A stretch of 33,250 nt of DNA. Source: a virus. The DNA lies in IMG/VR virus record IMGVR_UViG_3300030104_004479, positions 1 to 33,250 of that record; one strand, written 5' to 3'. Both the position numbers and the translations under genes were made by a program. This document shows, one piece after another, positions 302-18,428 of this stretch. Below the pieces are notes generated by a model, which searched no databases, was not told the origin of the DNA, and saw only the letters and a program-made list of their open reading frames with translations. Every line of letters starts with the position of its first letter. Position 1 is the stretch's first letter.

Positions 302-703
302 ATGGCGATCAAACGTATATCAAGGGGTTTTAAGGACATAAGTTTGTCTTTTTTACCTCATCCAGTCACAAATGACCTTCCCATTCTTCTGAATGAGAGG
401 GCAATTGTACGTTCTGTGCGAAATATTGTCGAAACAATACCAACTGAGAAGTTCTTTGACTCTCTTTTTGGTTCTGAAGTACGTGATAGTCTATTTGAAA
501 ACTTTACTCAGTCTACAGTTACAATACTTGAAGATCAAATAAGGACTAGTATTCTAAATTATGAACCAAGAGTTGACAATATTAATGTAGATGTGGATGG
601 TAAACCTGATTTAAACACTTTAGAGGTTACTGTATTCTTTGATATTATTGGTTTAGACGTTCCTACACAAACATTTTCATTCATATTAGAGCCCACTAGG
701 TAA
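302..703 (+). CDS. 25: Baseplate wedge protein gp25
   Basis: A 133-residue homologue of T4 gp25 (132 residues), the small wedge protein of the contractile-tail baseplate that binds gp6 and contacts the sheath initiator. The family hallmark EPR is visible in NYEPRVDNI near residues 88-95, followed by the expected beta-hairpin region (LEVTVFFDIIG). The N-terminal IKRISRGFKDISLSF resembles cyanophage gp25 starts. The ATG at 302 is 21 bases downstream of a late promoter. No clear Shine-Dalgarno is seen. The stop is separated from the gp6 ATG by one base, consistent with coupled translation and with the physical pairing of gp25 and gp6. Length and motif make this a confident call. Confidence 0.92.
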   Translation: MAIKRISRGFKDISLSFLPHPVTNDLPILLNERAIVRSVRNIVETIPTEKFFDSLFGSEVRDSLFENFTQSTVTILEDQIRTSILNYEPRVDNINVDVDGKPDLNTLEVTVFFDIIGLDVPTQTFSFILEPTR

Positions 704-704
704 T

Positions 705-2624
705 ATGCCGTTTACACAGTTTTCAAACTTAGATTTTGAGCAAATAAAAGTTCAAATAAAGGATCATCTTCGGTCAAATTCAAATTTTACTGATTTTGAC
801 TTTGAAGGATCTAACTTTTCAGTCTTAATTGATACTTTAGCGTACAATACCTACATTAATGCGTTCAATGCAAACTTGGTTGTCAATGAATCCTTCCTAG
901 ATTCGGCAAGTGTAAGGGAAAATGTGGTCTCTTTGGCACGAAACATTGGTTATGTACCTCGTTCTAAGACTGCTGCAGTTGCAAAAGTAAGAATTGAACC
1001 AGTTGAACTCGAAAATCCCACAGATATACCATATATACGACTAAAAGCAGGTTTATTTTGTGTTGGGTCAACAAATAATACAACTTTTAGATTTTCTATA
1101 CCCTCAGATATCACCTCTGTAAGAAAAAATAGTGATAATAAGTACGTTTTTGATGATATTGATGTATTTGAAGGCACATATCTAAGTTCAAGATTTAGTT
1201 CAATCTCACCACAAACAAATCGACAAAGATTTATTTTAGATAATCCAAATATTGACACAACAACGTTAAGAGTTAGTGTCAATAGTAGAAAATACTCTAT
1301 GGTTGATAATATTTTATCATTAAACAAAAACTCTGAAATCTTCTTGTTACAAGAAGTTCAGGACGGAAAGTATGAAATATTATTTGGTGATGGTTTATTT
1401 GGTAAACAGTTACAAGATGGTGATAGTATCATTGCATCATATATTGTTACTGATGGTGAAGATGGAAATGGTCCTGCTAACTTCTCATTCCAAGGAACAT
1501 TTTTAGATCATAATGATCCACCTCAATTAATTACTCCAAATGATAATGTAGTACTAACTACTGTTAATTCCGCTTCTAACGGCGGTGAAGCAGAAGATCT
1601 GTCCTCTATTAAGTATTTTGCACCTAGACTTTACTCAGCACAATACAGAGCAGTTACATCAAGGGATTATGAAGCAATTATATCAACAATTTATCCTAAA
1701 ACTGAATCTGTTGCCGTCATAGGTGGGGAAGAATTAGATCCACCACAATTTGGTAAAGTTCAAATTAGTATCAAACCAAAAAATGGAACATTTGTTTCTG
1801 ACTTTGACAAGCAACAAATTAAAAATAAATTAAAGAGTTATGCTATCGCTGGCATCAATTCCGATATAATTGATCTTAAAATCATATATGTCGAACTTCA
1901 TTCAACAGTTTACTATGATTCTTCAAAAATTTTAGATTTTTTAAATTTAAAATCTTCCATTGTTAATGCGTTAACAAACCATTCAAAGAATGTTGAAATG
2001 AATAAGTTTGGTGGTAGATTCAAGTATAGTAAAATCAATCAATTAATTGATAGAGTTCATGAAGGTATTACATCTAATATTACTAAAGTAATCATTAGAA
2101 GAGATTTGAAAGCATCTCTAGATACATTTGCACAGTATGAATTATGTTTTGGTAATCGTTTTCACATAAACCCAGAAGGATTTAATATTAAGAGTACTGG
2201 ATTTACTGTTTCTGGATCGAGTAAGACAGTTTATCTTACAGACGTTCCAAATAAAAGATCAGATGGTTCATTAGATGGTAGTCAAAAAGGTACACTGAGT
2301 GTAGTAAGTACTAATGAAAAAAATCAAAAAAATGTTATTTTAAAAGATGTTGGAATTGTTGATTATAAAAAAGGTGAAATAATATTAAATACAATTAATA
2401 TTACATCAACAGTAGCATCAAATAATATTGTTGAGATTCAGGCATTCCCAGAATCAAATGATATTATTGGATTTAAAGATTTATATCTCTCATTTGACGT
2501 TTCAAATACTACGATAAATATGGTAAGAGACGTAATTGCTTCTGGAGAAGATGTATCAGGCGTTGTTTTTGCAAGAGATTACTACACATCAAGTTACTCA
2601 AATGGGGTGCTAGAGAGGATATAA
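705..2624 (+). CDS. 6: Baseplate wedge protein gp6 (baseplate J-like)
   Basis: A 639-residue homologue of T4 gp6 (660 residues), which forms the ring of the inner baseplate and the clamp around gp7. The N-terminus carries the family pattern DFDFEGSNFSVLIDTLAYNT (about residues 24-43), which aligns with DYDFEGSRLNVLCDLLAYNT of T4. Further matches are ENVVSLARNIGYVPRSK, FGDGLFGKQL and the baseplate-J segment RAVTSRDYEAIISTIYPKTESVAVIGG (quoted here as two parts: RAVTSRDYEAI and the following IYPKTESVAV). The ATG follows the gp25 stop by one base. The downstream gp7-like ATG is three bases after its stop. Together with gp25 and gp7 this is the core wedge trio. No frameshift or truncation is apparent. 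Confidence 0.93.
   Translation: MPFTQFSNLDFEQIKVQIKDHLRSNSNFTDFDFEGSNFSVLIDTLAYNTYINAFNANLVVNESFLDSASVRENVVSLARNIGYVPRSKTAAVAKVRIEPVELENPTDIPYIRLKAGLFCVGSTNNTTFRFSIPSDITSVRKNSDNKYVFDDIDVFEGTYLSSRFSSISPQTNRQRFILDNPNIDTTTLRVSVNSRKYSMVDNILSLNKNSEIFLLQEVQDGKYEILFGDGLFGKQLQDGDSIIASYIVTDGEDGNGPANFSFQGTFLDHNDPPQLITPNDNVVLTTVNSASNGGEAEDLSSIKYFAPRLYSAQYRAVTSRDYEAIISTIYPKTESVAVIGGEELDPPQFGKVQISIKPKNGTFVSDFDKQQIKNKLKSYAIAGINSDIIDLKIIYVELHSTVYYDSSKILDFLNLKSSIVNALTNHSKNVEMNKFGGRFKYSKINQLIDRVHEGITSNITKVIIRRDLKASLDTFAQYELCFGNRFHINPEGFNIKSTGFTVSGSSKTVYLTDVPNKRSDGSLDGSQKGTLSVVSTNEKNQKNVILKDVGIVDYKKGEIILNTINITSTVASNNIVEIQAFPESNDIIGFKDLYLSFDVSNTTINMVRDVIASGEDVSGVVFARDYYTSSYSNGVLERI
2613..2618 (+). promoter_or_regulatory. 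Shine-Dalgarno sequence for the giant gp7-like gene
   Basis: GAGAGG lies inside the last codons of gp6, nine bases before the ATG at 2628. It is one of the clearer ribosome-binding sites in a window where many genes have weak or no Shine-Dalgarno sequence and rely on stop/start proximity. Confidence 0.55.
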
Positions 2625-2627
2625 AAT

Positions 2628-5600
2628 ATGTCGCAAATTGAAAAAAGAATAGAAGTTAACAGAATTATTGAGAATCAGTTACCAGAGTTTGTGGTATCTG
2701 ATTTTCCTAAAGCTGCTGAGTTTTTAAAGCAATATTACATCTCACAAGAATATCAAGGTGGTCCTATTGATTTAACCACCAATTTAGATCGTTATCTTAA
2801 AGTTGATAATCTAGTACCAGAAGTTATTACTGGTTCTACAATATTAACTGCAGATATAACATCTTCAGAAACTGGTATTGGTGTATCATCAACAAAAGGA
2901 TTTCCTTCTGAATATGGTCTTTTAAAGATTGGTGATGAAATTATCACTTATACAGGTATTACAACTAATTCATTTACTGGTTGTGTTCGTGGATTTAGTG
3001 GTGTAACTGGATACAATGTTGGTGTTACATCATCTCTAATAGAAGTTAATAATCAAAAGTTAGTATTTGAAGACACTTCTGCATCATCTCATAAAGAAGA
3101 TGCAACAGTTACTAACCTCAGTGTATTATTTTTACAAGAATTTTATAGAAAAACCAAAAGAACTTTTTTACCTGGATTAGAAGATAATGAATTTCATTCT
3201 GATATTGATGTAGGTAATTTTGTAAAATTTGCTAGATCTTTCTATCAGTCGAAAGGTATTGAAGAATCACTTAAGATATTATTTAAAGTATTATATGGCA
3301 TTAATCCAAAGGTTACAGATTTAGAGGAAAGATTAATAAAACCATCTTCTGCAGAATATATTCGTAGAGAAGTTGTGGTCGCTGAAAATGTAAGCATATA
3401 TGATCCATTAAAGCTTGTTGGTCAAACTATATTTAAATCTACTGATAATAGTACCAATGCTTCGATTTCTGAAGTAGAGATATTGAGTAGAGAAGGAAAA
3501 ACATATTATAAACTCTCATTATTTGTTGGTTTCGATGATAAGGATTTAATTGAAGGTGTATTTACTATACCAGGTAAAACTAAAATATTAGAACCAGTTT
3601 CAGTAGGATTCTCAACTATAACAGTAGATTCTACAGTTGGATTTGGTACTACTGGAACAGTTGTTAGTGGCAACAATACTATTAATTACACATCAAAGAG
3701 TATAAATCAATTTTTCGGATGTACTGGTGTTAATAATAACATTTCAACAGCAGATGACATTAGATCTGAAGAAGTAATATTTGGTTTTGAAGATGGAGAT
3801 TTGGCAAAGAAAGTTGAATTACGAATTACTGGTGTTATTTCTGATTTTGTTCCTGTATCTAATGTAAATCTAATAAAAGAAGGTGAAAAAATATATGTAA
3901 AGAATGTTGGAGAAAAAATAGATAATCCAACAATAAACAAATCTTATAAAGAAATTTTTGCTAATTCTTGGATTTATAATACAAGTTCTAGATATTTTGT
4001 AAAGGAAATTAATTCTGGTAGATTTGTCTTAAATAGTAAGATTGATAGATCAAGTTTAAAATTAGGAGACTCTTTTGCTGTTGTAAAGAGAGGATCTCAA
4101 ACAAATGAAGTAATATTTACTGTTGATAATATAGATTTAAATACAAATTCAGTAGGACCTAGTGGTTTAAGTGGTTGGACTCCTATTGTTAATCAACACT
4201 ATGATATTAGAAGAGTTGTTAATAAAGCAACAAGTTCAGGAATTGAACTAACTGAAGGTAATAATTCAATATTATCTGATGTATTGAATGTTTATAATGA
4301 TAGTTCTGCAGAAGGATATGTAGCATCAAACTCATTACCAAGTTATGATGTACAGAAAAATATTATAAAAGAGACTTTATCATCATCTAATACTGATATA
4401 AATGATTCTGATTTTGCACTTAGAGAATCTAATGCACTTGGACAATATGGATTAATTGCATTTGATTTACCTGCAAATACAAATCTTAAGTTTGTTCAAG
4501 GTGATGCTGTAATTTATAATGCAGGTATTTCTACACTGTCAATGGCAGGTCTTCAGGAAGGAAGATTGTATTATGTAGATGTTCTTCCTGCTGAACCAAA
4601 TTCAGGCATACATTCGATAAGATTGTATAATTCCAGAGCAGAAATTGGAGGATTTGATACAAATATTAAAGTAGGAGTTTCCACAATTGCATTGACAACT
4701 CATACATTTACTTTAGCAGATCATCATAATAAAAAGTTAGGTTCAAATAAAATACTTAGAAAATTTCCATTATCGCAAAATTTATATAAAGTTAAAAATA
4801 ATGAAAGACCAACAAATAATATTGGATTATTAATAGATGGTGTTCAAATACATTCTCCCCTATCTGATGACATAATTTACTATGGTCCACTTAATTCTGT
4901 TGAAGTTTTTAATGAAGGTATAGGTTATGATGTTGTAAATCCACCTAAAGTTGTTGTTGAGAATAGTACAGGAACAACTGCATTAGTGGATCCTATACTA
5001 AGTGGTACAGTTAAAGAAGTTTTAGTTGATCCTCAAGATTTTGATATTGAGAAGGTTAATAGTATTTCATTAACAGGTGGAAATGGTTCTGGATGTTTCC
5101 TTGAACCTATTCTTGGACCAAGATTTAGAGAACTTGAATTTGATAGTAGAGACGTATTCTTTAATGGTGGTGTTTCTATTGCAGAAGAAACAATTACATT
5201 TACTGGATTACATAATTTAGAAGATGGTGAGGTAATATACTACAACAGTAACGGAAATGCAGCCATAGGAATAGGTGCTGCTTATGACCTTACAAATACA
5301 ATAATAGGAACACTTGCAGATGGTGCACCTTATTTTGTAAGGGTGGTTAATTCTAGAACTATAAGATTGTTTAATAAAGTTTCAGATGCGTTAGTTGGCA
5401 CTGCAGGTATCAATACAGTTGGATTGTCTACAGACACTTCAGCAAGTGGTATTCATAAGTTTAGAACTGAATCTAAGAATACTCTTAGAAGTATAAATGT
5501 CATTGAATCTGGTTCTGGTTATCAATATAGAAATTTAAGAGTAGAACCATCAGGTATATCAACTGCTTTTGATACAATTAATTACAAGAATCATGGTTTT

Positions 5601-8600
5601 AATGAAGGTGATATTGTTGAATATTCATCAACAAATACTACTATATCTGGTTTAACAACTACAAATTCATATAAAATTGTTAAAATTGATAATAATTCAT
5701 TCAAACTTGCAAATGCAGGTGTAGGTGGTACATCTACATTTGATTATGATAGGAGTAAATGTGTTAATTTAAATTCTACTGGTACTGGGTATCAGAAATT
5801 TAAATATCCAGACATTAAAGTTAATGTCGATGTTTCTTATGGATCAACGGTAACAGGAACTTTTAACTTCACTCCAATTATTACTGGTCAAATTATTGAT
5901 TCTTATCTATATGAAAAAGGAACAGATTATGGATCAACTATATTAAATCATCAGAAAAATCCCGATGTTACTATTCAAACTGGTAAAGATGCTGCAGTAA
6001 AATGTTTAGTTGTTGATGGTAAAATAGGAAGTGTTACTGTAACTAATAAAGGTGAGCAATATTTCTCAGCACCAGAATTAGAGATAGAGGGGGATGGAAG
6101 TGGTGCTATTCTTAGACCTATAATAGAAAATGGACAGTTATCTGATGTTATTATAATTAATGCTGGAATTGGATACAGCACTGCAAATACAAATGCATTT
6201 GTTAAGTCTAGGGGTAGAAATGGATATTTAGAATCTCGTGTTAGAAATTTAACTCTTAATAATATTAGAGATAATGAATTAGATAATGATTATTTGGATT
6301 CCACTGGATCTGAATTTTCATATAATATTATTGGATATGATCAAGATTTAGCAGATCATTTCTCAGAAAGTTTTGAAAAAGATACGAATACTGGAGAATT
6401 TTTAAATGTAACAGATCATTCACCAATAATTGGTTGGGCATATGATGGAAATCCAATTTATGGACCTTTTGGATATGAAAATCCAGATGATATCAACTCT
6501 ATCGTTAGAATTTTAGACACTGGATATACTTTAAGTTCATCTCAAGTAGAAAATAGACCAACTGGATTTGATGCTGGTAGATTTGTTGAGGATTATGTTT
6601 ATGATGATAGTGGTCAATTAGATATTCATAATGGTAGATTTTGTAAAACACCAGAATTTCCAAATGGAATATATGCATATTTTGCTGGAGTTACAACTAG
6701 CACTTCATCTAATAAGTTAATATCAAAATTCCCATATTTTATTGGAAACACTTATAAATTCCCACTTATTAATGATAACTTGATATTAGATCAAGATTTT
6801 GATTTTAATAGTTCAAACTTATTAAGAAATACTCAACCATATAAAGTTGGTGAAGAGTTTGCTGAGAATGATTTTATAATTGAATCAAATGAATCAATAA
6901 GGCAATTTTCAGTTGTTGAATCAATTCATTCAGGTGAGATTAAAAATTTAAACATTTTAGATGGTGGTTCTGGATATAAAATTGGTGATTTTACAGATTT
7001 TGATGATTCTGAAACAGGTGGTATAGGTTTTCAGGCACAAGTTGATGAAATTGTTGGTATTGGTGTTTCTAAGATTGAAACAGTTTTAACTAGATTTGAA
7101 AATTCTGTATTTGAATGGAAAGATAATCGTGAAGTAATAGCACATCATCTACCTTTTATTGAATTAAATGATCAAGATAATGTGGTGATATCTGGATTAA
7201 GTACAAATATTGTTAATTTAACAGATTCATTTAAAGTTGGTGTAAAAACTGATACAATAGGATTAGCAAAAACAATGGCAGTTAACAATAATGCTGCTGG
7301 AGTTATTGAAGACATTTATGTAAATCAAATTCCAGATACGGTTTCTATTGGTGGATCAATCAGAATTGGTTCTGAAGCAGCTAAAGTTTTAACTTTATTT
7401 GATGTTAATAAAGTAATTAGAATTAGAAGATTTAATACTGGAATTGCTCATACTTATGGTTCTAATATTGACGTATTAAATAACAAAATTTCTATACCTG
7501 TAAGAACGGAAAGATTTAATTCAAAACCTAATGATATAGTATTTTTCAATAGTACTCAGCAAGTTGGTGTTGGTGTAACTTCAGGTAGTGCCATCACAAG
7601 AGATTATCATATAGGGGAAACTAAAATTGAAGTACCTATTCCAACTAGAACAATATATCTACCAAATCATCCATTTATAACTGGACAAGCAGTAAGATTT
7701 GCTATGAATCCTGGTGCAACACCATTTACTGCAAGGGGTGGAGAACATTCCACTACATTTAATCTACCAGATGCAACAACTTCTTTTAGTGATGTTTTCG
7801 TAATTAATAAAGGTGAAAATTACATTGGATTGGTAACTCAAAGATCATCTATAGGTAGTACTAGTGAAGGTGTTTTCTTTAATGGTGGTGGATCATCTTC
7901 AGGTATTTCTTCTGGATTATATTCAATAACTTCAAAGTTTGATCAAGTAATTGGTGATATTGATAGAATAACTTCTACAGTAACAACAAATGTTTCTGCA
8001 GCAGATACAACAACTCACGGATTAGCAATCAATGATGTTGTTAAAATGAATGTAAAACCAAATTTATCTGTTGGGTTTGGTAATAGTTCACCAATATCAG
8101 TAAAATATAACTCACAGTTTGAAAAATTACTCTTTAATGAAGTAGAATTTGCCGCTGCTGATGTAGAAACAAATAGAATTGATATAAGTGGTCATGGATT
8201 TAAAACTGGAGATAAAGTATTTTATGATGGAAATGCCAATGGATTAGAAACAGGATCATATTTTGTATATGAAGTAAGTGATAGGTATTTCCAATTAGGT
8301 GAAACATTCAAGGATGTTACAGTTAATCCACCAAGAATTTTACCAATAACAGCATCTACAGGAGGATCTGGTCAAAAAATTTCTTTAATAAATCCTCAGA
8401 TAAATGTTGTTAAAAATTCTAAAGTAACTTTTGGATTATCTGATACATCATTATCTGGATTTGATTTTAGAATATATTATGATGATGCATTTAAGAGTGA
8501 ATACAATAGTTCTCAAGATACAAATAATTTTAATGTGACTCAATATGGTGTGGTTGGTCTTGGAACTAGTCCATCTGATCCAATTGGAGCTGCTGTAACA

Positions 8601-11600
8601 ATTTCATATTCAAATGAATCTCCTAATGTATTATATTATTCTTTAACAAAAGGTGGATATATTAGTACTTCCGATAAACAAGTTATTAATGGTTCCGAAA
8701 TAAAATATATTGATAGTGCTTATAGTGGAGAATTTAAAGTATTTGATATTACAAATGATACTTTTAAAATTTCACCAAGAAGGACTCCCGAATTTTTGAC
8801 TTATGAAGAAAGAGATTGTGATGTTATTGAGTATTCTACTAGATCTAAAAATGTCGTTGGTTCTATAAAAGATTTAAAAATTACATCTAAAGGATTCAAT
8901 TATAAAGTTTTACCTGGATTTACATCAGTTACTAGTGTTAGAGGTAAGAATGCAAATATTGTAGCAATTTCAACTACAATTGGTTCTGTTAAAGATGCTC
9001 GTATTGTTGATATTGGATATGAATATTCTTCTGATAAGACTTTAAGTCCAGAAGCATTTATTTCACCTACTGTAAATGTTGATAATCTCGATGTTATAGA
9101 GTCAGTTAATGTTATTAGTGGTGGAAAAGAATATACTAGTCCACCCGATTTATTACTCTTTGATCCAATTGATAATAAGATAGTTGATAATTCATCTTTA
9201 ATTGCTAAGGTTCCAAATCAAACTATTGCTGAAGTTGAATTATTTGTACCAATTCAAGGATTAGATTCTATAAGTCATAATATAATAGCAATTAATAACT
9301 CTAATGGTGTTGGAATACGTTCTATGCAGAGTAGTTCTTCTGGATTAGTTACTTGTTTCCTAGATACACCACTTAATGGGTATTTTACTGCACCATTTAC
9401 TACTGGAGATAAAATATTTGTTGAAGGTATTCAACGTGAAGGTGAATCTGGAACTACTGTAGTTGGTGTAGGTACAACTGGAGGACAAGGTGGTATTGGA
9501 ACTTCTACCAATATCATTGGTGATGGATTTAATTCAGAAAACTATAATTACCGTTTCTTTGATGTTATTGAATATTCCAATAGCAATCCAGCAGTTCTCA
9601 AGTTTAGTGTGGCAGGATTAACTACTAATCCAGGTGTTGCAAAGACATTCCAATCTGGTTATGCATCATTAATCAATAAAAATAATTATCCAGTATTAGA
9701 ACCTGTTCAAGTTAGAGGTAAATTCCAACTTAGTGAACAAGTAAGAGTTGATAGTGGTAATGGATATATTGATACCGATCTTATAATTGTTGAAGTTAGA
9801 GATGATTATGTTAAAGTTGATGGTGATTATAGATTGAATAATGGTGATAGGATCAAGGGTATTGTTAGTAATGTAAGTGCAGAAGTAGTTGGTATTATTA
9901 AAAAGGAAGCTAAATTTAAGATAGATTATTCCAGTAAACAAAATGTTGGTTGGACTGATGGTATAGGAAAATTAAATGAAGATTATCAAGTCATACCTGA
10001 CAATGATTATTTCCAAAATCTTTCTTATACTGTTGAAAGTCCGATAGAATGGGAGAAAAGTGTAGATCCAGTTAATAGATTGGTTCATCCTGCAGGATTG
10101 AAGAATTTTGCAGATACTATAATTGAATCTGTATCAGAATCAAAAATTTCATATGGTTCAACAACAGTCAATGCCATAACTTTAGACATTGTTAATGATC
10201 CAAAACGAGTTGATGCTATTAATGTTTTTGACCTTGCTACTGATTTTGATAGAAGAGATAATCAATCCAAATTTGCACAAGTATCTAATAAACAATTAAC
10301 CGACTTTACTAAGTGTAAGTCTAATAGAGTTCTTATTCATGATGATATAAGTAGTAAGTTTTCAAGCAAAGGATTCCAAGCATCAACTACTGAATTAGAA
10401 GAATTAGATAGTACATTCTCTCATTATCTTGTTCAGATAATAGATCCAGATACTTTTGACACTCAAGTTTCTGAATTAATTGTTTTAACAGATACTAATA
10501 ATGCATATTTACTTGAAAAATCAACTGATTTTACAACAACGAAGTTAGGTGATTTTACAGCAGAGTCTAATCCGATAGATCAAACAAAAACTATAAACTT
10601 CTTCCCAACAGAAGTATTTACGAAGGATCATGATATTAAATTATTGAAGACTGACTTTAGAACCGATCAGGTTTCTGCCGCATCTACAAATGAAATTGGG
10701 CAGGTTGAGTTATCATCTACAATTGTTGGTGTTGGTAGTACCACTGTAGGATTTACAACAACTACTATTGTTGAATATCCTAAGACGGACTTTAATGCAT
10801 TACATGCAAGTCTTATTATACAAAATGATCTTACTAAAGATGTAAATTATAGTGAAGTAATTGTAGATTTTGATGGTGTTAATACTTATATCGCTGAGAC
10901 ATTTATTGATACTAGACAAAATTCATCTACCACAAATAAGGTTGGTTTAGTTACTGCAGTATTTGAAGACAATAGAATTAGATTACAATGTTTAAATGAT
11001 CAAGCAACTACTCTTACTGTTAGTGCGAATGTTGTTGGATTAGGAACTACAACTGCAGGAATAGGAACTCATAGATTCGCAGTTCCTGGACAAGAACCTG
11101 GTTCTGAAAGAAGTGCTAGACTTCATTCAGATTATTCATCTGGTACAGGTGCATATACTTTTGCAACCTTAGATAAAAATCTTGATAGTACTATCAAATC
11201 TCTTGTTAGAGTTTCTTGTGGAGAAACATCTGCTATTCATCAATTAATTGGAATGAGAGATATTGATGATGTTTTGACTGTTCAATATCCATTTGTTTCT
11301 GCTGGATCAACAACTGGTATTGGTACATTTGGTGGAGAAATAAGTGGTAGTAATATAAACATTAAATTCTATCCTGATACAGAGTATTCTTCAGCATTAA
11401 CTGAAGTTCAATCATTTAATCAAGTTCTTTACACTACAAATGATTTTGATAATACTGCACCTGTTTATCAATTTGGTGAGGCTGAGAAGAGAATATTCTT
11501 ATCAGCATATGATGGACTTAATGGAAATAGAGCAAATAAAACAGAATTTGATTTAACACACGAAAATACACCAATTTATACTAAAACATTTGATCCTACA

Positions 11601-14600
11601 AATACTGGTATTCTTAGTACAACAACTGGTATATTCACAATCGATAATCATTTTTATAATAATGGTGAACAATTAGAGTATACTCCAAGTTCAACTATCA
11701 TTGGACTTGCTGCAACTGCAGTTTCTATAGCATCTACTGCAAATAGTGCAGGTGTTGTAACTACTATTTTACCAACTACAGTATTCCCTAAAGTAATAAA
11801 TGAGAGACAATTCCAGTTATTTACCAGAAAAGAATATGTAACTGCCTCTGGTGCACTTCCAGTAACATTCACTGGAACTGGATCTGGAAATGCTCATAAG
11901 TTGAATATAACTAAGAAATTATCAAAAACTGTTATTGGTTTAGATGGTATAGTACAACAACCAATCTCATTTACATCAATCGAACATACATTAGATGGTG
12001 CTATTGGCATTGGAATTACACAATTCATATTAAGTGGAATTAGTTCAGTACAACCTAAAGATGTATTGAAGATTGATAATGAATATATGAAAGTTGACCA
12101 GGTTGGATTTGCAAGTGTTCAAAATGGTTTTATTAACGATTCTACTGCAGTTTCCCTTGGAATCGCTACATTGCCTGTTGTGAGGGTGCAGAGAGGATCT
12201 TTAGGTATAGGAGCAACTCCACATAGTGATGGTGCTGCAGTAAGAGTTCATAGAGGATCATTTAATATTGTTGATAGTAAAGTATTTTTCCTTGATCCAC
12301 CTAAAGGAAACACCAGATCAAGAAGGGCAGATGACAATTTACCATTTGTAAAGGCAGAATTTAGTGGTAGAACTTTCTTAAGGAGTGACTACACTACAAA
12401 TATGGTATTTGATGATATCTCTGATGTCTTTACTGGTATTGGTAGAACATATAGTTTAACTGTAGGTGGAGCAAATACCAGTACAGGAGTTGGAATTGGT
12501 AATGGTGTATTATTCATCAATGGAGTTTTCCAAACACCATTAACAGTTAATAACACAGGTAATAACTATGAATTTGAAAATGACACAACTGCGGGTATTT
12601 CAAGTGTTGTATTTACTGGCATATCTTCTGTTAATGGAGATTTTATTAAGTCTGATTTTGACATTAACCAAAATCAATTACCTAGAGGTGGTCTAATTGT
12701 ATCTCTTGGTTCTACACCTGGTTTAGGATATGCTCCTCTTCTTGGTGCTGAAGTTAAACCTAAACTTGATGTTGCAGGATCCATAGTTTCTATTGTTGGT
12801 ATTGGTACTTCTATAGGTGCTCTTGCTAAAGTTCCTGCTAATTCAAGATTGGGTATTCAAACTGCAGATTATGATCATATAACAGGAATTATTACAGTTA
12901 CAACAACTAAAGTTCATGGATTCTCTTTAGATTTTCCTTCTATGGTTAAATTGAGAGATTTAGAATTTACTTGTTCTAATGAACATGCAGGTGTAACTAC
13001 AACATTCTTCCAAGATCATGAACGTCCACTTCATTTAGTTGGAATAATATCAGATAGAACTTTTGAAGTTGATGCTGGTATCTGCACCATACCACATAAT
13101 TATAAGACTGGTGGTAATGCTTGGGAATTCTTTAATGATTTAACATTTGGTAGTGGTTATTATGGTCCTGTTGCTATTGGTGTTACAGACATTGAGTTTG
13201 TTCATAAATTTGCAAGTTCGACTAATAATTCTATTACTGCTAATACTAGTGCACAGTTTACACCGACAGCAGCGAATTATGATTCTCCTAGTGGTAGATT
13301 AAGTCTAACAGTGGGAAGTCATTCTTTACAAGCAGCAACTAAACATACGGTTACTGATGCTCAGTATGATGCTCGTGTTGGTATAATGACTGTTACAGTT
13401 GCTGGACATGGATTTAATAATGGTGATTTTGTTAAGTTTGCAGATAATTCATTAACATTCAAATGTTCAATGGATAATAATGCAACCAATCATACTTATC
13501 CAAGAGCATCTGATCCATCTAGCAATACTTGGTTACAAATTTCAAATAAAACAACTAATACTTTTAGAGTAAATGTTGGAACATCACCAATAGTTACATT
13601 CACACCAACAGGTGCTGATTATAACCCAGTTACAGGATTGATGGAATTAGAGATTGGTGCTCATAGTTTAAATGCAGGTACAAGTATTAGACTTGCACCT
13701 AATTCATTGTCATTTACCTGTGATACTGATAATAATTCAAGTACCAAAACTTATCCTAGATCAACAGATCCATTACATAATACTGCCATTAAGATTCTAT
13801 CTGTAACTGACACTACGATTACTATTCAGACTCTAACAACAATACCATCTACAAACACTGCTAGACATACGTTCTTAAGTGCTTCAAGTGGTGCAGTTAT
13901 TAGTGGTGGGGAATATGTACATACATTTGTAGGAAGTCAGGCAGCAGCAACAAACGGTCTTTCAAGAGCACTTAATACTGTTGTTATAGGAACTGATTCA
14001 CTTGGATTTACTTGTACTAGAGATGATCATAGAGGAATTCATACTTATCCAAGATCTACTGATCCAGCAGCTGGTGCAAGTTTAGGTGTTGAAGAAATTA
14101 ATTCAGAAGCAATAGTTGTTAATGTTGGTTCTGGTGGTGGAGGCGGAACACAAGCAGCTATTAGTGCAGAGGTTGCATTTAACAAGCATAGGTTTGTTAG
14201 TGCTGGTATTAACAGTATTACTGTTACTGGTGGATCATCATTAACAGCAACTGATGCAGATTACAACCCACAAACTGGTGAGTTGGTAGTAACCAAAGCA
14301 TCTCATGGTGTAAGCGGTGCAAGCACAATTACAGTATCAAACGCTGCTTATAATGAAAATACAGGTGTATTAACATTAACTAAGAATTCTCATGGATTCA
14401 ATGTTGGAGATGATATCTTGATTACTGATGGTGCACTAACATTTACTTGCACTAAGGATAATAATTCAACAAATCATCCATATCCAAGATCTACTGACTA
14501 TGCTAGTGGTAAGTGGTTAAAGATTACAAATAAAACTACCAATACGTTTAAAGTTAATGTAAACCCAAATCCAACCTCACCAGTATATGGGCATACATTT

Positions 14601-16817
14601 GTCGCATCAGAAACAGTTGCTGGTGGTATTCAAAAGTCTAATGCTAGTGTTGGTATTCAAACACATAGTATAGTATTCACTTGTGCTAAAGATGCTTTCC
14701 AATCACTTCATCCATATCCAAGACCAGTTGCAGGTGATGGTGATCCAGATCCAGCACATAATGCAACTTTACCAGTTGGTCTAGTTACACCTAATACATT
14801 TAGATTACAAGTTGGTAAATCTCCTGCAGGAACAGGTGGAGCATTAGATCTTAAAATTACTGAAGCAGGTGGTAATTATGTAAATCCATTAATTCAAACT
14901 CCAGATCCAGTTTATGAAAATCTTCCTGTCATAGGTGTTTCTAGATTGGGTATCGGCAAAACTACAAAAACTGGAGACAATCTATTAATTAGTGCAACTG
15001 TTGGTGCTGCTCAAACTACAGTTGGTATTGGATCTACTGGATTTTCTATATTTGACTTTAAAGTAACAAGATCTGGTCATTCGTTTAATGTTGGAGATAA
15101 ATTTAAACCAGTTGGTCTTGTAACAGCCTCAAATCTACAAAAACCAATAGATGAGTTTGAATTGGAAGTAGTCGAAACATTTAATGATTTCTTCTCTGCT
15201 TGGCAATTTGGTGAAATTGATTTCATTGACAGTATTAAGTTGCTGCAGAATGGATCTAGAAGAAGATTCCCATTATTCTTGAATGGTCAATTAATTAGTT
15301 TTGAAAAAGATAGTAATGATTCATTATCAGATCAAATTGATCTTGATGCTGTTCTTGTTATATTCGTAAATGGTGTTTTACAAACACCTAAAATTTCATA
15401 TCAATTTAATGGTGGAACAACCGTATTATTTACTGAAGCACCTTCAGTAAGTGATAAAGTTGATATATTCTTCTATGTTGGTCAGAGAGGAGTTGATATT
15501 GAAATAGTAGATGTACAAGAAACTGTAAAAATTGGTGATGATATTCAATTATTTAAAAATCCTAATTTTGTAGATACTGTTGATCAAGAGAGAAGTAGAA
15601 TTATTAAATCTTTCTTAGGATCTGATATACTTGAAACTGACACATATATTGGTATAGGTATCACTGAGGATCAGGAAAAACCATTACAATGGACCAAACA
15701 GAAAGTTGATAAGATTATTCAAGGTGAAGTAATTAGTAAATCAAGATCAACTATTGAAGCACAAATTTATCCTACTGCTAAAATTATTGGTGATCTGACA
15801 ATATCTTCTGGTAATGGTGGAACATTTGGTGGAATATTTGTTGATGATGCAGAATCATTCTATTATGAAGATACTAATAATCAAGCATTAGCATCTGGTG
15901 ATAGATATGGAATTGGTATCAATGGTGTAGATGCTTTAGTAATCGAAGGAGATACAAGTTTGATTGGTGCTGCATTTACTGCTGTTGTTTCTGCTGCAGG
16001 AACAATACAATCATTAACTACATCTAATGTAGGATCTGGTTACACTGCTGGTCCAATTCATATTAATTTTGCTGCTCCACAGTCTGTTGGAGTAGGTGTT
16101 GGAACAACAGCATTTGCTAAGGCAACTATTACTGGTGGAAAAGTTTCAAATGTTTCTATTGAAAATGTAGGTTTAGGGTATACATTTACTGCACCTCCAC
16201 AAGTTATTATACAACAACCACAAAATCTTACTGAAAGGATTACATCTATTCAAAATGTTGAAGGATATACTGGAGTTATTACTGGTATTACAACAACAAA
16301 TGGAATAGGTGGTCATTCAACAGCACTTAAATTCTTCTATAGAGCAGATAAAACTGCTAATTCATTGTTAGCTCAATATCCAGTGTTCATAACAGACACT
16401 ACAGTTGGAAATGGCGTAACTTCGGTTAATAGTAATAATAATTCTGTAGTTTCTATAGGTACAACATTCTTGGATAATATTTACATAGTAAATGCAATTT
16501 CTTCTTCAGGAGAAAATGGTGAAATTATATGCAATGTTCAAGATGGTTCTCCAATAGTTGGAATAGCAACTACTGGATTCCATAATCCAGCTAACACTGG
16601 ATTAACAACATCATTAGGTAGGTTATCTTGGGGTAGACTATATACAACAGGCAGTAATGTTATCAGAAGTACAACTCCAATTTCAATAGGAGTTACTGGG
16701 TTTACAGTCAATTCTGGATTAACAACTTTCCCAACTGTTCAAAGAAGAAACTTTAAAGATACATCTTTGAAGGGATTAAGATCCACTGGATCGTTGAGAG
16801 TCTTTGGACTTCCATAA
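2628..16817 (+). CDS. 7: Giant gp7-like baseplate wedge protein with repeat-rich extension
   Basis: A 4729-residue uninterrupted frame, more than four times the length of T4 gp7 (1032). Residues ~1-330 resemble the C-terminal part of T4 gp7: SKGIEESLKILFKVLYG (about residues 207-223) against STKGIEASYKFLFKVLYN, then LVGQTIFKST (about 263-272) against LVGQTIYTAT. The gene also sits between gp6 and gp8. The rest is a chain of beta-rich, Gly/Thr/Asn-rich modules: GxGY repeats (~760-1190, 2080-2180, 4460-4530), HGFxxGD units, a YHYH-type domain (~1262-1380), two NGVxQTP units (~3286-3330, 4238-4288) and a tandem FTC/YPR array (~3412-4068). No membrane segment or signal peptide is visible. Expected role: wedge assembly through the N-terminus. 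The extension is likely exposed on the baseplate periphery and may replace missing gp10/gp11-type parts (inference). Confidence 0.85.
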   Translation: MSQIEKRIEVNRIIENQLPEFVVSDFPKAAEFLKQYYISQEYQGGPIDLTTNLDRYLKVDNLVPEVITGSTILTADITSSETGIGVSSTKGFPSEYGLLKIGDEIITYTGITTNSFTGCVRGFSGVTGYNVGVTSSLIEVNNQKLVFEDTSASSHKEDATVTNLSVLFLQEFYRKTKRTFLPGLEDNEFHSDIDVGNFVKFARSFYQSKGIEESLKILFKVLYGINPKVTDLEERLIKPSSAEYIRREVVVAENVSIYDPLKLVGQTIFKSTDNSTNASISEVEILSREGKTYYKLSLFVGFDDKDLIEGVFTIPGKTKILEPVSVGFSTITVDSTVGFGTTGTVVSGNNTINYTSKSINQFFGCTGVNNNISTADDIRSEEVIFGFEDGDLAKKVELRITGVISDFVPVSNVNLIKEGEKIYVKNVGEKIDNPTINKSYKEIFANSWIYNTSSRYFVKEINSGRFVLNSKIDRSSLKLGDSFAVVKRGSQTNEVIFTVDNIDLNTNSVGPSGLSGWTPIVNQHYDIRRVVNKATSSGIELTEGNNSILSDVLNVYNDSSAEGYVASNSLPSYDVQKNIIKETLSSSNTDINDSDFALRESNALGQYGLIAFDLPANTNLKFVQGDAVIYNAGISTLSMAGLQEGRLYYVDVLPAEPNSGIHSIRLYNSRAEIGGFDTNIKVGVSTIALTTHTFTLADHHNKKLGSNKILRKFPLSQNLYKVKNNERPTNNIGLLIDGVQIHSPLSDDIIYYGPLNSVEVFNEGIGYDVVNPPKVVVENSTGTTALVDPILSGTVKEVLVDPQDFDIEKVNSISLTGGNGSGCFLEPILGPRFRELEFDSRDVFFNGGVSIAEETITFTGLHNLEDGEVIYYNSNGNAAIGIGAAYDLTNTIIGTLADGAPYFVRVVNSRTIRLFNKVSDALVGTAGINTVGLSTDTSASGIHKFRTESKNTLRSINVIESGSGYQYRNLRVEPSGISTAFDTINYKNHGFNEGDIVEYSSTNTTISGLTTTNSYKIVKIDNNSFKLANAGVGGTSTFDYDRSKCVNLNSTGTGYQKFKYPDIKVNVDVSYGSTVTGTFNFTPIITGQIIDSYLYEKGTDYGSTILNHQKNPDVTIQTGKDAAVKCLVVDGKIGSVTVTNKGEQYFSAPELEIEGDGSGAILRPIIENGQLSDVIIINAGIGYSTANTNAFVKSRGRNGYLESRVRNLTLNNIRDNELDNDYLDSTGSEFSYNIIGYDQDLADHFSESFEKDTNTGEFLNVTDHSPIIGWAYDGNPIYGPFGYENPDDINSIVRILDTGYTLSSSQVENRPTGFDAGRFVEDYVYDDSGQLDIHNGRFCKTPEFPNGIYAYFAGVTTSTSSNKLISKFPYFIGNTYKFPLINDNLILDQDFDFNSSNLLRNTQPYKVGEEFAENDFIIESNESIRQFSVVESIHSGEIKNLNILDGGSGYKIGDFTDFDDSETGGIGFQAQVDEIVGIGVSKIETVLTRFENSVFEWKDNREVIAHHLPFIELNDQDNVVISGLSTNIVNLTDSFKVGVKTDTIGLAKTMAVNNNAAGVIEDIYVNQIPDTVSIGGSIRIGSEAAKVLTLFDVNKVIRIRRFNTGIAHTYGSNIDVLNNKISIPVRTERFNSKPNDIVFFNSTQQVGVGVTSGSAITRDYHIGETKIEVPIPTRTIYLPNHPFITGQAVRFAMNPGATPFTARGGEHSTTFNLPDATTSFSDVFVINKGENYIGLVTQRSSIGSTSEGVFFNGGGSSSGISSGLYSITSKFDQVIGDIDRITSTVTTNVSAADTTTHGLAINDVVKMNVKPNLSVGFGNSSPISVKYNSQFEKLLFNEVEFAAADVETNRIDISGHGFKTGDKVFYDGNANGLETGSYFVYEVSDRYFQLGETFKDVTVNPPRILPITASTGGSGQKISLINPQINVVKNSKVTFGLSDTSLSGFDFRIYYDDAFKSEYNSSQDTNNFNVTQYGVVGLGTSPSDPIGAAVTISYSNESPNVLYYSLTKGGYISTSDKQVINGSEIKYIDSAYSGEFKVFDITNDTFKISPRRTPEFLTYEERDCDVIEYSTRSKNVVGSIKDLKITSKGFNYKVLPGFTSVTSVRGKNANIVAISTTIGSVKDARIVDIGYEYSSDKTLSPEAFISPTVNVDNLDVIESVNVISGGKEYTSPPDLLLFDPIDNKIVDNSSLIAKVPNQTIAEVELFVPIQGLDSISHNIIAINNSNGVGIRSMQSSSSGLVTCFLDTPLNGYFTAPFTTGDKIFVEGIQREGESGTTVVGVGTTGGQGGIGTSTNIIGDGFNSENYNYRFFDVIEYSNSNPAVLKFSVAGLTTNPGVAKTFQSGYASLINKNNYPVLEPVQVRGKFQLSEQVRVDSGNGYIDTDLIIVEVRDDYVKVDGDYRLNNGDRIKGIVSNVSAEVVGIIKKEAKFKIDYSSKQNVGWTDGIGKLNEDYQVIPDNDYFQNLSYTVESPIEWEKSVDPVNRLVHPAGLKNFADTIIESVSESKISYGSTTVNAITLDIVNDPKRVDAINVFDLATDFDRRDNQSKFAQVSNKQLTDFTKCKSNRVLIHDDISSKFSSKGFQASTTELEELDSTFSHYLVQIIDPDTFDTQVSELIVLTDTNNAYLLEKSTDFTTTKLGDFTAESNPIDQTKTINFFPTEVFTKDHDIKLLKTDFRTDQVSAASTNEIGQVELSSTIVGVGSTTVGFTTTTIVEYPKTDFNALHASLIIQNDLTKDVNYSEVIVDFDGVNTYIAETFIDTRQNSSTTNKVGLVTAVFEDNRIRLQCLNDQATTLTVSANVVGLGTTTAGIGTHRFAVPGQEPGSERSARLHSDYSSGTGAYTFATLDKNLDSTIKSLVRVSCGETSAIHQLIGMRDIDDVLTVQYPFVSAGSTTGIGTFGGEISGSNINIKFYPDTEYSSALTEVQSFNQVLYTTNDFDNTAPVYQFGEAEKRIFLSAYDGLNGNRANKTEFDLTHENTPIYTKTFDPTNTGILSTTTGIFTIDNHFYNNGEQLEYTPSSTIIGLAATAVSIASTANSAGVVTTILPTTVFPKVINERQFQLFTRKEYVTASGALPVTFTGTGSGNAHKLNITKKLSKTVIGLDGIVQQPISFTSIEHTLDGAIGIGITQFILSGISSVQPKDVLKIDNEYMKVDQVGFASVQNGFINDSTAVSLGIATLPVVRVQRGSLGIGATPHSDGAAVRVHRGSFNIVDSKVFFLDPPKGNTRSRRADDNLPFVKAEFSGRTFLRSDYTTNMVFDDISDVFTGIGRTYSLTVGGANTSTGVGIGNGVLFINGVFQTPLTVNNTGNNYEFENDTTAGISSVVFTGISSVNGDFIKSDFDINQNQLPRGGLIVSLGSTPGLGYAPLLGAEVKPKLDVAGSIVSIVGIGTSIGALAKVPANSRLGIQTADYDHITGIITVTTTKVHGFSLDFPSMVKLRDLEFTCSNEHAGVTTTFFQDHERPLHLVGIISDRTFEVDAGICTIPHNYKTGGNAWEFFNDLTFGSGYYGPVAIGVTDIEFVHKFASSTNNSITANTSAQFTPTAANYDSPSGRLSLTVGSHSLQAATKHTVTDAQYDARVGIMTVTVAGHGFNNGDFVKFADNSLTFKCSMDNNATNHTYPRASDPSSNTWLQISNKTTNTFRVNVGTSPIVTFTPTGADYNPVTGLMELEIGAHSLNAGTSIRLAPNSLSFTCDTDNNSSTKTYPRSTDPLHNTAIKILSVTDTTITIQTLTTIPSTNTARHTFLSASSGAVISGGEYVHTFVGSQAAATNGLSRALNTVVIGTDSLGFTCTRDDHRGIHTYPRSTDPAAGASLGVEEINSEAIVVNVGSGGGGGTQAAISAEVAFNKHRFVSAGINSITVTGGSSLTATDADYNPQTGELVVTKASHGVSGASTITVSNAAYNENTGVLTLTKNSHGFNVGDDILITDGALTFTCTKDNNSTNHPYPRSTDYASGKWLKITNKTTNTFKVNVNPNPTSPVYGHTFVASETVAGGIQKSNASVGIQTHSIVFTCAKDAFQSLHPYPRPVAGDGDPDPAHNATLPVGLVTPNTFRLQVGKSPAGTGGALDLKITEAGGNYVNPLIQTPDPVYENLPVIGVSRLGIGKTTKTGDNLLISATVGAAQTTVGIGSTGFSIFDFKVTRSGHSFNVGDKFKPVGLVTASNLQKPIDEFELEVVETFNDFFSAWQFGEIDFIDSIKLLQNGSRRRFPLFLNGQLISFEKDSNDSLSDQIDLDAVLVIFVNGVLQTPKISYQFNGGTTVLFTEAPSVSDKVDIFFYVGQRGVDIEIVDVQETVKIGDDIQLFKNPNFVDTVDQERSRIIKSFLGSDILETDTYIGIGITEDQEKPLQWTKQKVDKIIQGEVISKSRSTIEAQIYPTAKIIGDLTISSGNGGTFGGIFVDDAESFYYEDTNNQALASGDRYGIGINGVDALVIEGDTSLIGAAFTAVVSAAGTIQSLTTSNVGSGYTAGPIHINFAAPQSVGVGVGTTAFAKATITGGKVSNVSIENVGLGYTFTAPPQVIIQQPQNLTERITSIQNVEGYTGVITGITTTNGIGGHSTALKFFYRADKTANSLLAQYPVFITDTTVGNGVTSVNSNNNSVVSIGTTFLDNIYIVNAISSSGENGEIICNVQDGSPIVGIATTGFHNPANTGLTTSLGRLSWGRLYTTGSNVIRSTTPISIGVTGFTVNSGLTTFPTVQRRNFKDTSLKGLRSTGSLRVFGLP
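6411..6770 (+). other. YHYH-type domain inside the gp7-like protein
   Basis: Residues ~1262-1380 contain the ordered motifs PIIGWAYDGNPIYGPFGY, then LDIHNGRFCKTPEFPNG, then IYAYFAG and FPYFIGNTYK. This follows the YHYH protein family, in which a G-Y/W-A-x-DG-x-PIYGP motif precedes LDxxNGR and a GTYHYH element. Here the YHYH element itself is IYAYFA, so the name-giving histidines are lost. The function of the family is not established. I know of it in marine bacteria and phage virion proteins. Confidence 0.7.
12860..14830 (+). repeat. Tandem FTCxxD...YPRxxD repeat array in the gp7-like protein
   Basis: Six units are recognisable by a C-terminal signature F-T/K-C followed by DxN/H and H-x-YPR. 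The FTC/FKC codons start at 12966, 13458, 13713, 14007, 14442 and 14676. YPR is present in the last five units and degenerate in the first. Most units begin with a half reading YxxxTGxxxxTxxxHGFxxGD and end with a strand such as NKTTNTFRVNV. The two most alike (at 13458 and 14442) lie in matching contexts, which suggests a longer duplicated super-unit. Similar repeats occur in marine phage structural proteins as I remember them. Confidence 0.85.
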
Positions 16818-16853: not shown

Positions 16854-18428
16854 ATGTCGGCAATTGTTACTGATCAATTTAGAATTCTAAATGCAAATAA
16901 CTTTGTTGAATCAGTAGAATCTACTAACAATTCATATTATGTTTTTATTGGTTTATCAAATCCAACAACAGTTGGATATGGTAGATCTTCTGGTTGGCAA
17001 TCAAATACACCTCCACCTGAAGATAATTTTTCTTACAGGTCGCATGTTGGTGATACTATGATGTTTGGTAAAAAAATATCATCTGCAAATATTAGAAGAA
17101 TTGTAAGAAAAGTAGATTGGGTTTCTGGTAATAGATATGAAATTTATAGAGATGATTACAGTGTAAAGAATCCTAGTCCAATAAATTCTGCTGCTAGATT
17201 ATACGAAGCAAATTATTTTGTAGTAAATTCTGATTTTAAAGTTTATGCTTGTATTGATAATGGTGGTGATGGATCTAATCCAAAAGGTAGTATATCACAA
17301 GATGAACCAACATTTACTGATTTAGAACCAACAAAAGCTGGTAATAGTGGTGATGGTTATGTATGGAAATATCTATTTACGATTTCGCCAAGTGATATTA
17401 TTAAATTTGATTCAACAGAATATATAACGGTTCCTAATAATTGGGGATCAAATACAGATTCTGGTATTAGAGCAGTTAGAGAAAATGGAGATTCTTCTGT
17501 TAATAATAACCAAATTAAGCATATTTTCATAGAAAAATCGGGTGCTCAATATGCTAACGGATTTGGACAAGAAGTTGATATACTTGGTGATGGAACTGGT
17601 GCAAAAGCAATAATTGATGTTGTTAATGGTAAAATAACTAATGCTACCGTCAGTTCTGGTGGTAAAGGTTATAGTTATGGATTAGTAGATTTAGGAACTT
17701 TAAACAGTAATGTTTCTACTGTAAATAGAGCAAAGTTAGTTCCAATAATTCCACCATCATTAGGTCATGGATATGACATTTACACTGAATTAGGAACTGA
17801 TAGAGTTTTAGTATATGCAAGATTTGATGATTCTACTAAAGATTTTCCAACAGATTCAAAATTTGCACAAGTTGGTATTGTAAAGAATCCTACCAAAGTA
17901 GGAACTGCTGTTACATATACTGATAATACTTTTTCTTCTTTACAGGCAGTTAAGTTTGAAACAATAACTGGAACACCACAAATTGGTGAAGAAATTAAAC
18001 AGACTCTAACTGAAGCACCAAATAATGGAAAAATTGTCACTGCTTATGTTGCTTCTTATGATGATTCTACCAAAGTTCTAAAATATTTTAGAGATAGATC
18101 TTTAAATTATACTACAACAGATGATCAGACTGATTATGCTGGTATATCAACCACTGGTAGAATATATAATTTTGAATCTGTAGCAACAGCAAATCAGATT
18201 AAGGGAGTTACATCTGCTTTCTCTGGATCTATTGATAATAATTTCTCTGGGATATCAACAAATCCTACTGGAACAAAATTAATTAACTTAGGAGTGACCT
18301 TCAACGCAGGGTTATCTGATAGTGAGATAAATAAAGGATCAGGGGAAATAATCTATCTAGATAATAGACCTTTGATTGCTCGAAATTCTCGACAAAAAGA
18401 AGACATTAAAATCATCCTGGAATTCTAA
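16854..18428 (+). CDS. 8: Baseplate wedge protein gp8 with inserted beta repeats
   Basis: A 524-residue homologue of T4 gp8 (334 residues), the wedge dimer that links gp7 and gp10 and triggers outer baseplate rearrangement. Matches include AIVTDQFRI near the N-terminus (T4 AIVTSKFRT), GDGYVWKYLFTISP (T4 GDGYVWEYLFEIPP), TEYITVP (T4 NEYIVVP) and the C-terminus GEIIYLDNRPLI (T4 GEMIYMENRPPI). The extra length lies mainly at residues ~222-300 (about 17518-17750), where GAQYANGFGQ, LGDGTGAKA and GGKGYSYGLVD form the glycine-rich GxGY module also found in neighbouring proteins. The core resumes at FAQVGIVKNPTKVG (T4 FRQISIITNPLEAKA). The gene is preceded by a late promoter and is six bases from the next gene. 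Confidence 0.92.
   Translation: MSAIVTDQFRILNANNFVESVESTNNSYYVFIGLSNPTTVGYGRSSGWQSNTPPPEDNFSYRSHVGDTMMFGKKISSANIRRIVRKVDWVSGNRYEIYRDDYSVKNPSPINSAARLYEANYFVVNSDFKVYACIDNGGDGSNPKGSISQDEPTFTDLEPTKAGNSGDGYVWKYLFTISPSDIIKFDSTEYITVPNNWGSNTDSGIRAVRENGDSSVNNNQIKHIFIEKSGAQYANGFGQEVDILGDGTGAKAIIDVVNGKITNATVSSGGKGYSYGLVDLGTLNSNVSTVNRAKLVPIIPPSLGHGYDIYTELGTDRVLVYARFDDSTKDFPTDSKFAQVGIVKNPTKVGTAVTYTDNTFSSLQAVKFETITGTPQIGEEIKQTLTEAPNNGKIVTAYVASYDDSTKVLKYFRDRSLNYTTTDDQTDYAGISTTGRIYNFESVATANQIKGVTSAFSGSIDNNFSGISTNPTGTKLINLGVTFNAGLSDSEINKGSGEIIYLDNRPLIARNSRQKEDIKIILEF
17518..17720 (+). repeat. GxGY-type beta repeat insertion in gp8
   Basis: Two units, HIFIEKSGAQYANGFG and TNATVSSGGKGYSYGL, are separated by ILGDGTGAKAIIDVVNGK. 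This is the pattern [strand]-GxGY-[P/V strand]-GxGTGAxA seen in gp7, gp14 and the 2525-residue protein, and T4 gp8 has nothing comparable at this position. Confidence 0.7.

Follow-up and report, generated by a model that had tools for sequence, protein, structure and literature searches.

Genes at the locus and continuity of the frame

The DNA analysed, hereafter the window, is a virus record of 33,250 bases whose top DNA matches come from marine phages, namely an uncultured virus, AG-345-E02, and, as the first cultured one, P-SSM2. It contains a block of baseplate genes in the order gp25, gp6, gp7, gp8 and VrlC (Table 1), and the position of the giant gene between gp6 and gp8, noted in the first-pass annotation, is borne out by the Pfam matches of both neighbours. 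The gp7 frame begins with ATG and encodes 4729 residues, with a single stop at the end of the ORF. PHROG 2885, which represents P-SSM2-type giant gp7 proteins, matches its product with 3980.7 bits, the best stretch covering residues 3–3640, while the VrlC homologue is 38% identical to VrlC of phage HTVC008M over the N-terminal ~500 residues of VrlC. Protein roles outside the cited papers are assigned partly from general background knowledge. At the left edge, positions 2–256 encode the C-terminal end of a protein that begins upstream; it matches the beta-trefoil family PF22509 below the cut-off (22 of 26 bits). Towards the right edge, positions 31976–33214 encode a 412-residue protein with a C-terminal DUF6321 (E = 1.6e-22), and the part bearing this domain is common to several PHROGs of unknown function.

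Table 1. Baseplate genes of the window and subdivisions of the giant gp7; residue numbers refer to the gp7 chain.
Feature	Position	Strand	Evidence
gp25-like wedge protein	302..703	+	PF04965, E 1.7e-12; PHROG 261
gp6-like wedge protein	705..2624	+	PF21379, E 6e-17; PHROG 219
Giant gp7, baseplate wedge protein, 4729 residues	2628..16817	+	Collinear with P-SSM2 gp7; PHROG 2885 'baseplate wedge subunit', E 0
Core piece A1, residues 6-65, N-terminal helices	2643..2822	+	HMM A1; AlphaFold model
Inserted beta module, residues 66-160, between core helices	2823..3107	+	Absent in compact gp7s
Core piece A2, residues 161-300	3108..3527	+	HMM A2; PDB profile search, E 5.9e-9
Inserted region, residues 301-2449, module-like; modelled parts beta-rich	3528..9974	+	A2-B gap comparison
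YHYH-family domain, residues 1262-1358, within the insert	6411..6701	+	PF14240, E 1.5e-23, 84.2 bits (cut-off 25)
Core piece B, residues 2450-2506, DNDYFQNLSYTVES...VNRLVHPAG	9975..10145	+	HMM B
C-terminal extension, residues 2507-4729	10146..16814	+	Follows B
Repeat stretch, (F)TC..D....YPR motif, residues ~3540-4066	13245..14825	+	Sequence inspection
gp8-like wedge protein	16854..18428	+	PF09215, E 1.6e-16; PHROG 438
VrlC homologue, 2525 residues, with DUF4815	18435..26012	+	PF16075, E 2.5e-55

The closest well-annotated counterpart is gp7 of P-SSM2 (AAX44489.1, 5195 residues, 'baseplate wedge initiator'). It occupies the same locus, 4722 of the 4729 window residues align to it with ~50% identity, and its three core pieces come in the same order (A1 7–66, A2 162–300 and B 2474–2527). 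It differs in being 466 residues longer, mainly through extra repeat copies around residue 4000. Judged from this alignment, the window protein is a member of an already annotated family and a full-length orthologue of P-SSM2 gp7.

An assembly error joining two genes had been suspected at first. In 79 of 80 IMG/VR relatives, the gp7 frame stays open as far as the available DNA reaches, piece B is present in all 35 ORFs of at least 2510 residues among the 80 close relatives of the window, and P-SSM2 gp7 is collinear; an assembly join can therefore be excluded and the 4729-residue frame is real. The single exception is broken at 748 residues and lies on a 235,761-base contig (L015:10001–21347), where the gp7 gene runs through several frames with the matching query pieces adjoining; a 648-residue ORF in the gp6 position, ahead of the split gene, is whole. 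These breaks are likely to be sequencing indels, real decay being possible. They are what can be said for an artefact of assembly or frame that fuses several genes, an explanation of negligible probability against which stand the annotation of P-SSM2 gp7 as one gene, the agreement of all 35 long relatives and the presence of a homologue in virions. In a proteomic study (PMC9146016), the protein list of CsCl-purified S-SZBM1 particles contains a 'baseplate wedge initiator' of 6619 residues, a length equal to that of the gp7-core-bearing gene of this phage; its row has the values 71 and 13.5%, taken here as peptides and coverage.

Homology to T4 gp7 and division of the core

The protein had been described as gp7-like on the basis of two motifs. 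Both, SKGIEESLKILFKVLYG and LVGQTIFKST, are present at residues ~207–272, in the helical and the following beta part of A2, respectively, and homology to gp7 was confirmed by profile searches, searches of PDB chains and Foldseek. When residues 1–450 were used as a single sequence against PDB chains, T4-family gp7 proteins took ranks 1 and 2 (E = 0.0029 and 0.087), with the match covering T4 residues ~729–814; the whole 4729-residue chain as a single query gave no PDB match at E ≤ 1. A profile of 94 relatives, without a T4 row, found two T4-family gp7s at E = 5.9e-9 and 1.1e-6 (next match 0.032), and a profile of 20 compact gp7s, i.e. relatives that lack giant inserts, found them at 2.6e-10 and 4.3e-9 (next match 0.1) and aligned A1 and A2 to T4 residues 645–832 as one block. 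The matching part of T4 gp7 is thus this internal region and not the extreme C-terminus, as had been thought. The T4-derived Pfam models of gp7 (helical, V and VI) gave no match to the window protein at E ≤ 1, and the N-terminus could not be usefully aligned with T4 by global hhalign.

The AlphaFold model of residues 1–345 has a mean pLDDT of 68, with block values of 49–57 over residues 1–60; helices are predicted in A1 at residues 3–17, 20–25, 27–42 and 49–56. Among 516 Foldseek matches of this model, the only one at E ≤ 0.001 is a T4 baseplate chain, 5iv5_BJ (1004 residues, E = 2.9e-4, TM-score 0.13), most likely gp7 by its chain length and by the presence of 5iv5 among the listed gp7 entries; the gp7 chain 5hx2_A ranks sixth (E = 0.086). 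The VIA-align matches listed for the core model are all to the inserted module at residues 64–165, T4 gp7 not being among them. Because TM-scores are low and the first helices are poorly modelled, the claim of homology rests on the sequence evidence.

T4 gp7 is present as one copy per wedge and six per baseplate. The T4 protein (1032 residues; PDB entries 5IV5 and 5HX2) shares with the window protein its place between gp6 and gp8 and the core, where A1 and A2 correspond to T4 645–832 and B, with its 'HPxG' motif, to T4 ~865–890, but it carries ~640 residues ahead of the core and has no module insertions. The absence of a counterpart to the N-terminal part of T4 gp7, noted earlier, holds, but its extent is T4 residues 1 to ~644 rather than ~700 residues: the core of the window protein starts at residue 6, and PHROG 964 and PHROG 20454, both matched by T4 gp7, are absent among the window matches at E ≤ 1.

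HMMs for the three pieces were built without T4 sequences, from seeds that include the window and several relatives, and were compared with 377 negatives (20 other phage structural proteins and shuffled and reversed sequences). The A2 model found all seven T4-family gp7s at E values from 4e-11 to 4.9e-9, the best negative being a window protein at 0.021, and the B model found all seven at 9.4e-6 to 9.3e-4 (best negative 0.014). By itself, A1 gave E values of 0.0053 for RB49 and 0.019 for avDM7, whereas its values for the remaining five did not improve on the best negative (0.031); it aligns in the T4 family only jointly with A2, by way of the compact forms. Direct hhalign comparison of B with T4-family gp7 is weak (probability 7%, E = 0.005). 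In sequences outside the B seed, B was found at 5.2e-23 (P-SSM2), 1.9e-19 (P-SSM4), 3.7e-18 (MA01) and 3.1e-17 (S-SRM01). Its consensus in compact gp7s is DNxYYQxxSYVxxS...HPAG, phiM19 reading HVSG at the end. A compact core of 284 residues matches T4-family gp7 in one piece (for example, query 3–273, E = 4e-5), and residues 226–283 of this core match ACG-2014f gp7 at 49%, ~2400 residues past the start of that gene.

In the window protein, a 95-residue module separates A1 from A2, 2149 residues separate A2 from B, and 2223 residues follow B. An N-terminal core with a long extension had been proposed; the extension does make up most of the chain and is module-like, but the core is split, and with B at residues 2450–2506 roughly half of the additional residues interrupt it. 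The order of the pieces is constant. An A2-bearing ORF is present at 229 of 240 IMG/VR loci, and in every one of the 229, compact ones included, A2 starts between residues 28 and 163; A1, detected in 225 of them, always precedes A2, and B, detected in 115, always follows it. Complete compact ORFs (449–1678 residues) have all three pieces in this order in 59 of 62 cases, and B is found in 79 of 80 compact relatives. In the S-PM2-type set (n = 69), the 3000-base flank is too short to reach B, which accordingly scores 0 of 69. The distance from A2 to B is 39–767 residues in 79 compact relatives versus 2064–2235 in 36 close relatives of the window. All 229 A2-bearing relatives are core-first, so that the rearranged architecture which had been supposed is not supported; it is at least as likely that T4 gp7, with its 640-residue N-terminal part, is the departure. 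The useful part of this corrected anatomy is a minimal gp7 core of ~280 residues, as in phage OC, with two fixed insertion sites. No description of a split gp7 core was found in the open-licence papers searched, which does not prove its absence in print.

Inserted modules and C-terminal extension

The first inserted module is lacking in compact proteins such as those of OC and YB07, in which A2 directly follows A1. For model residues 64–165, the top VIA-align match is 9in6_M (Z 10.8, 76 residues aligned, rmsd 2.3), which like 8vjh_A (Z 9.9, 74 aligned, rmsd 1.5) and 8rk3_b (Z 9.7, 75 aligned, rmsd 1.9) belongs to a phage tail protein. Many F1-ATPase barrels come next, with Z-scores of ~7.6–8.0, so the module as modelled is a common small barrel that resembles domains of phage tail proteins.

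Within the large insert, residues ~1112–1477 are found again by blastp in S-PM2, MA01 and, up to residue 1376, P-SSM4; in an alignment of 72 giant gp7s from two groups, 32 columns are invariant. The model of residues 1040–1490 (mean pLDDT 68) has no PDB match at E ≤ 0.001; its best Z-score is 4.2, to Ig-like domains, for its 77–157 part. The YHYH-family domain lies in this recurring stretch. For such domains, a zinc hydrolase with conserved histidines has been proposed (PMC7824862). The motif reads YAYF in the window, where Y310, A311 and F313 are conserved at 90% or more in the 72-row alignment. A regular expression matched 48 of 113 ORFs and none of the matches reads YHYH, the other 65 ORFs giving no match. 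If the motif supplies two of the proposed zinc-binding histidines, an assumption taken from the family name, its change to YAYF makes a YHYH-type metal-dependent hydrolase active site unlikely in the window protein.

By core HMM coordinates, the C-terminal extension measures 2668 residues in P-SSM2, 1174 in S-PM2 and 13 in phiM19. Its repeat stretch gives several overlapping alignments to P-SSM4 gp7. Self-BLAST of the giant gp7 produced no off-diagonal pairs, and the repeats were judged by eye and with a regular expression.

Relatives, neighbouring baseplate genes and proposed role

The very large size of the chain, remarked upon at the outset, is real, yet ordinary for the cyanophage group. 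In hand-picked records of 14 cyanophages, gp7 measures 1942–7312 residues (P-SSM2 5195, P-SSM4 7312, S-PM2 3048, S-SRM01 3895, MA01 1942 and nine others 3274–7124), and with the window included the median is 4729 residues (n = 15). Phages of other hosts have shorter forms: 503 residues in YB07, 631 in OC, 896 in Melnitz-3, 1007 in phiM19 and 1016 in HTVC008M. Among the 19 named core-first records that were sized, those of at least 1942 residues are the 14 cyanophages. IMG/VR also contains compact-type ORFs that are incomplete at 1475–1878 residues, so long forms may extend beyond cyanophages. The proteins of OC (an Ochrobactrum phage) and YB07 (a Stenotrophomonas phage) have the three pieces at the same locus, in genomes with DUF4815/VrlC in which the gp10 C-terminal domain and gp11 were not found; they differ from the window in having no giant inserts.

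T4 gp7 contacts gp10, gp8 and gp6 (PMC3004832), and cyanomyoviruses are described as being without g10, g11 and g12 (PMC2984593). We compared the gp10 C-terminal domain, gp11, the gp9/10 N-terminal family and DUF4815/VrlC in 15 genomes, five T4-type and ten core-first; gp12 was outside this set, as were F86 and AS-yj, which took part in the HMM tests. The gp10 C-terminal domain and gp11 are present in all five T4-type genomes and were found in none of the ten core-first ones, five of which have a gp7 of 503–1016 residues. DUF4815/VrlC occurs in all ten core-first genomes versus none of the T4-type (the T4 genome itself has gp10 and gp11 and lacks DUF4815/VrlC). The gp9/10 N-terminal family is present in seven of the 15, namely the five T4-type genomes, P-SSM4, where the member is annotated as gp9, and Melnitz-3. 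The exchange of gp10 and gp11 for VrlC goes with a core-first gp7, long or short, and their absence tracks VrlC and the lack of the T4 N-terminal part, not giant size; as the 15 genomes are essentially two clades, this mutual exclusion amounts to about one evolutionary contrast.

The extension had been suggested to replace gp10 and gp11, or a fibre. The former idea is not supported, since gp10 and gp11 are equally not found with gp7s of 503–1016 residues and their loss needs no giant extension; that it stands in place of a fibre is possible. A core that is solely N-terminal and anchors one long C-terminal extension replacing gp10 and gp11 is improbable: the strongest T4 match is indeed N-terminal and the gp10 C-terminal domain and gp11 were found in none of the ten core-first genomes, but piece B sits far down the chain and the two genes were equally not found beside short gp7s.

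According to PMC7029224, cyano- and pelagimyophages lack T4 gp7, with VrlC apparently taking its place. For the genomes tested, our sequence comparisons contradict this statement and indicate that cyanophages do have gp7. In the Pelagibacter phage HTVC008M, gp055 (L259:33435–36485, 1016 residues), labelled 'head closure Hc2', carries the gp7 core (A1 9.9e-10, A2 1e-29, B 6e-21) and lies between gp6 and gp8, with VrlC coming next as a separate gene; it differs from the window protein in being short. HTVC008M VrlC itself reaches only chance level (A2 0.011, B 0.83), and the window VrlC gave no match to the core HMMs at E ≤ 1.

We consider it likely, with a probability of about 0.8, that the window protein is the gp7 of a T4-like (Kyanoviridae) cyanophage, with its split core in the wedge and its inserts and tail as baseplate periphery. 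As in T4 and XM1, the wedge core would be built by A1, A2 and B folding jointly with gp25 and a pair of gp6 chains. By analogy, the inserts and the tail may protrude at the wedge rim and form a periphery that contacts the host surface or docks fibres, and that, together with VrlC, would stand in for the N-terminal part of T4 gp7, gp10 and gp11. In simpler phages an early loop carries such attachments. XM1 gp17 (242 residues) is described as the orthologue of T4 gp7, and its loop 80–106 and C-terminus 201–242 bind spikes (PMC10457771); in E217, loop 76–123 of gp45 (504 residues) holds a fibre (PMC10329688), and from its triplex role we read gp45 as a probable gp7 equivalent. The first insert of the window protein also follows the N-terminal helices, a comparable site. 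An hhalign comparison of the compact profile with E217 gp45 gave a short match at the SKG helix with a non-significant E of 0.14, which leaves the loop comparison with E217 only suggestive.

More tentatively, and at somewhat less than even odds, we propose that gp7 itself is the baseplate periphery in marine cyanophages: it would display thousands of residues through two fixed loops of its core and its C-terminus, at the sites where simple phages hold their fibres, take over, with VrlC, the place of gp10, gp11 and the N-terminal part of T4 gp7, and be the first to contact the host in phages that lack long fibres. With the corrected anatomy of gp7, it becomes testable which components build the outer baseplate of the T4-like phages that infect marine cyanobacteria and make the initial contact with the host.

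What the modules do within such a periphery can be read in two further ways. They could be receptor-binding adhesin domains, making the wedge protein the main host-recognition protein, a reading that we find possible but rather doubtful. It would agree with inserts and tail that vary most in size around a preserved core, with the restriction of the long forms among the 19 sized records to cyanophages, with the resemblance of the first inserted module to domains of phage tail tips and tailspikes, and with S-SZBM1, which by TEM has no long tail fibres (PMC9146016). Against it, the big insert is near-constant in close relatives (2064–2235 residues, n = 36), identity to P-SSM2 of ~50% along the chain means slower change than we would expect of a receptor-binding part, the low-confidence model of residues 1040–1490 matches no carbohydrate-binding fold, and the incomplete compact-type ORFs of IMG/VR may take long forms beyond cyanophages. 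Alternatively, the modules could be passive bulk, a structural skirt or spacer that sets the width of the baseplate or protects it and that grew by module duplication. Lengths graded from 503 to 7312 residues at one locus, and the location of most of the additional P-SSM2 residues in the repeat stretch, are in line with this; the recurrence of residues ~1112–1477 in S-PM2, MA01 and P-SSM4 (to 1376), with more invariant columns than bulk needs, counts against this reading, which is rather unlikely.

Three genes after VrlC in HTVC008M (NC_020484 44145–46025, 46673–49735 and 49760–51649) are named 'baseplate wedge initiator'; the two that were scanned, gp059 and gp062, have no gp7 core pieces at E ≤ 1. 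PHROG 3465, the best match of HTVC008M gp055, is also labelled 'head closure Hc2', and three PHROGs matched by the window gp7, plus one matched weakly, are filed under 'head and packaging'. In the neck protein of the window (29737–31134; PF11649, PHROG 460), residues ~186–372 match giant-gp7 module families and a tail fibre family; on the strength of these matches to giant-gp7 families, the 'head closure' label may have been passed on by a module that gp7 and the neck protein have in common.
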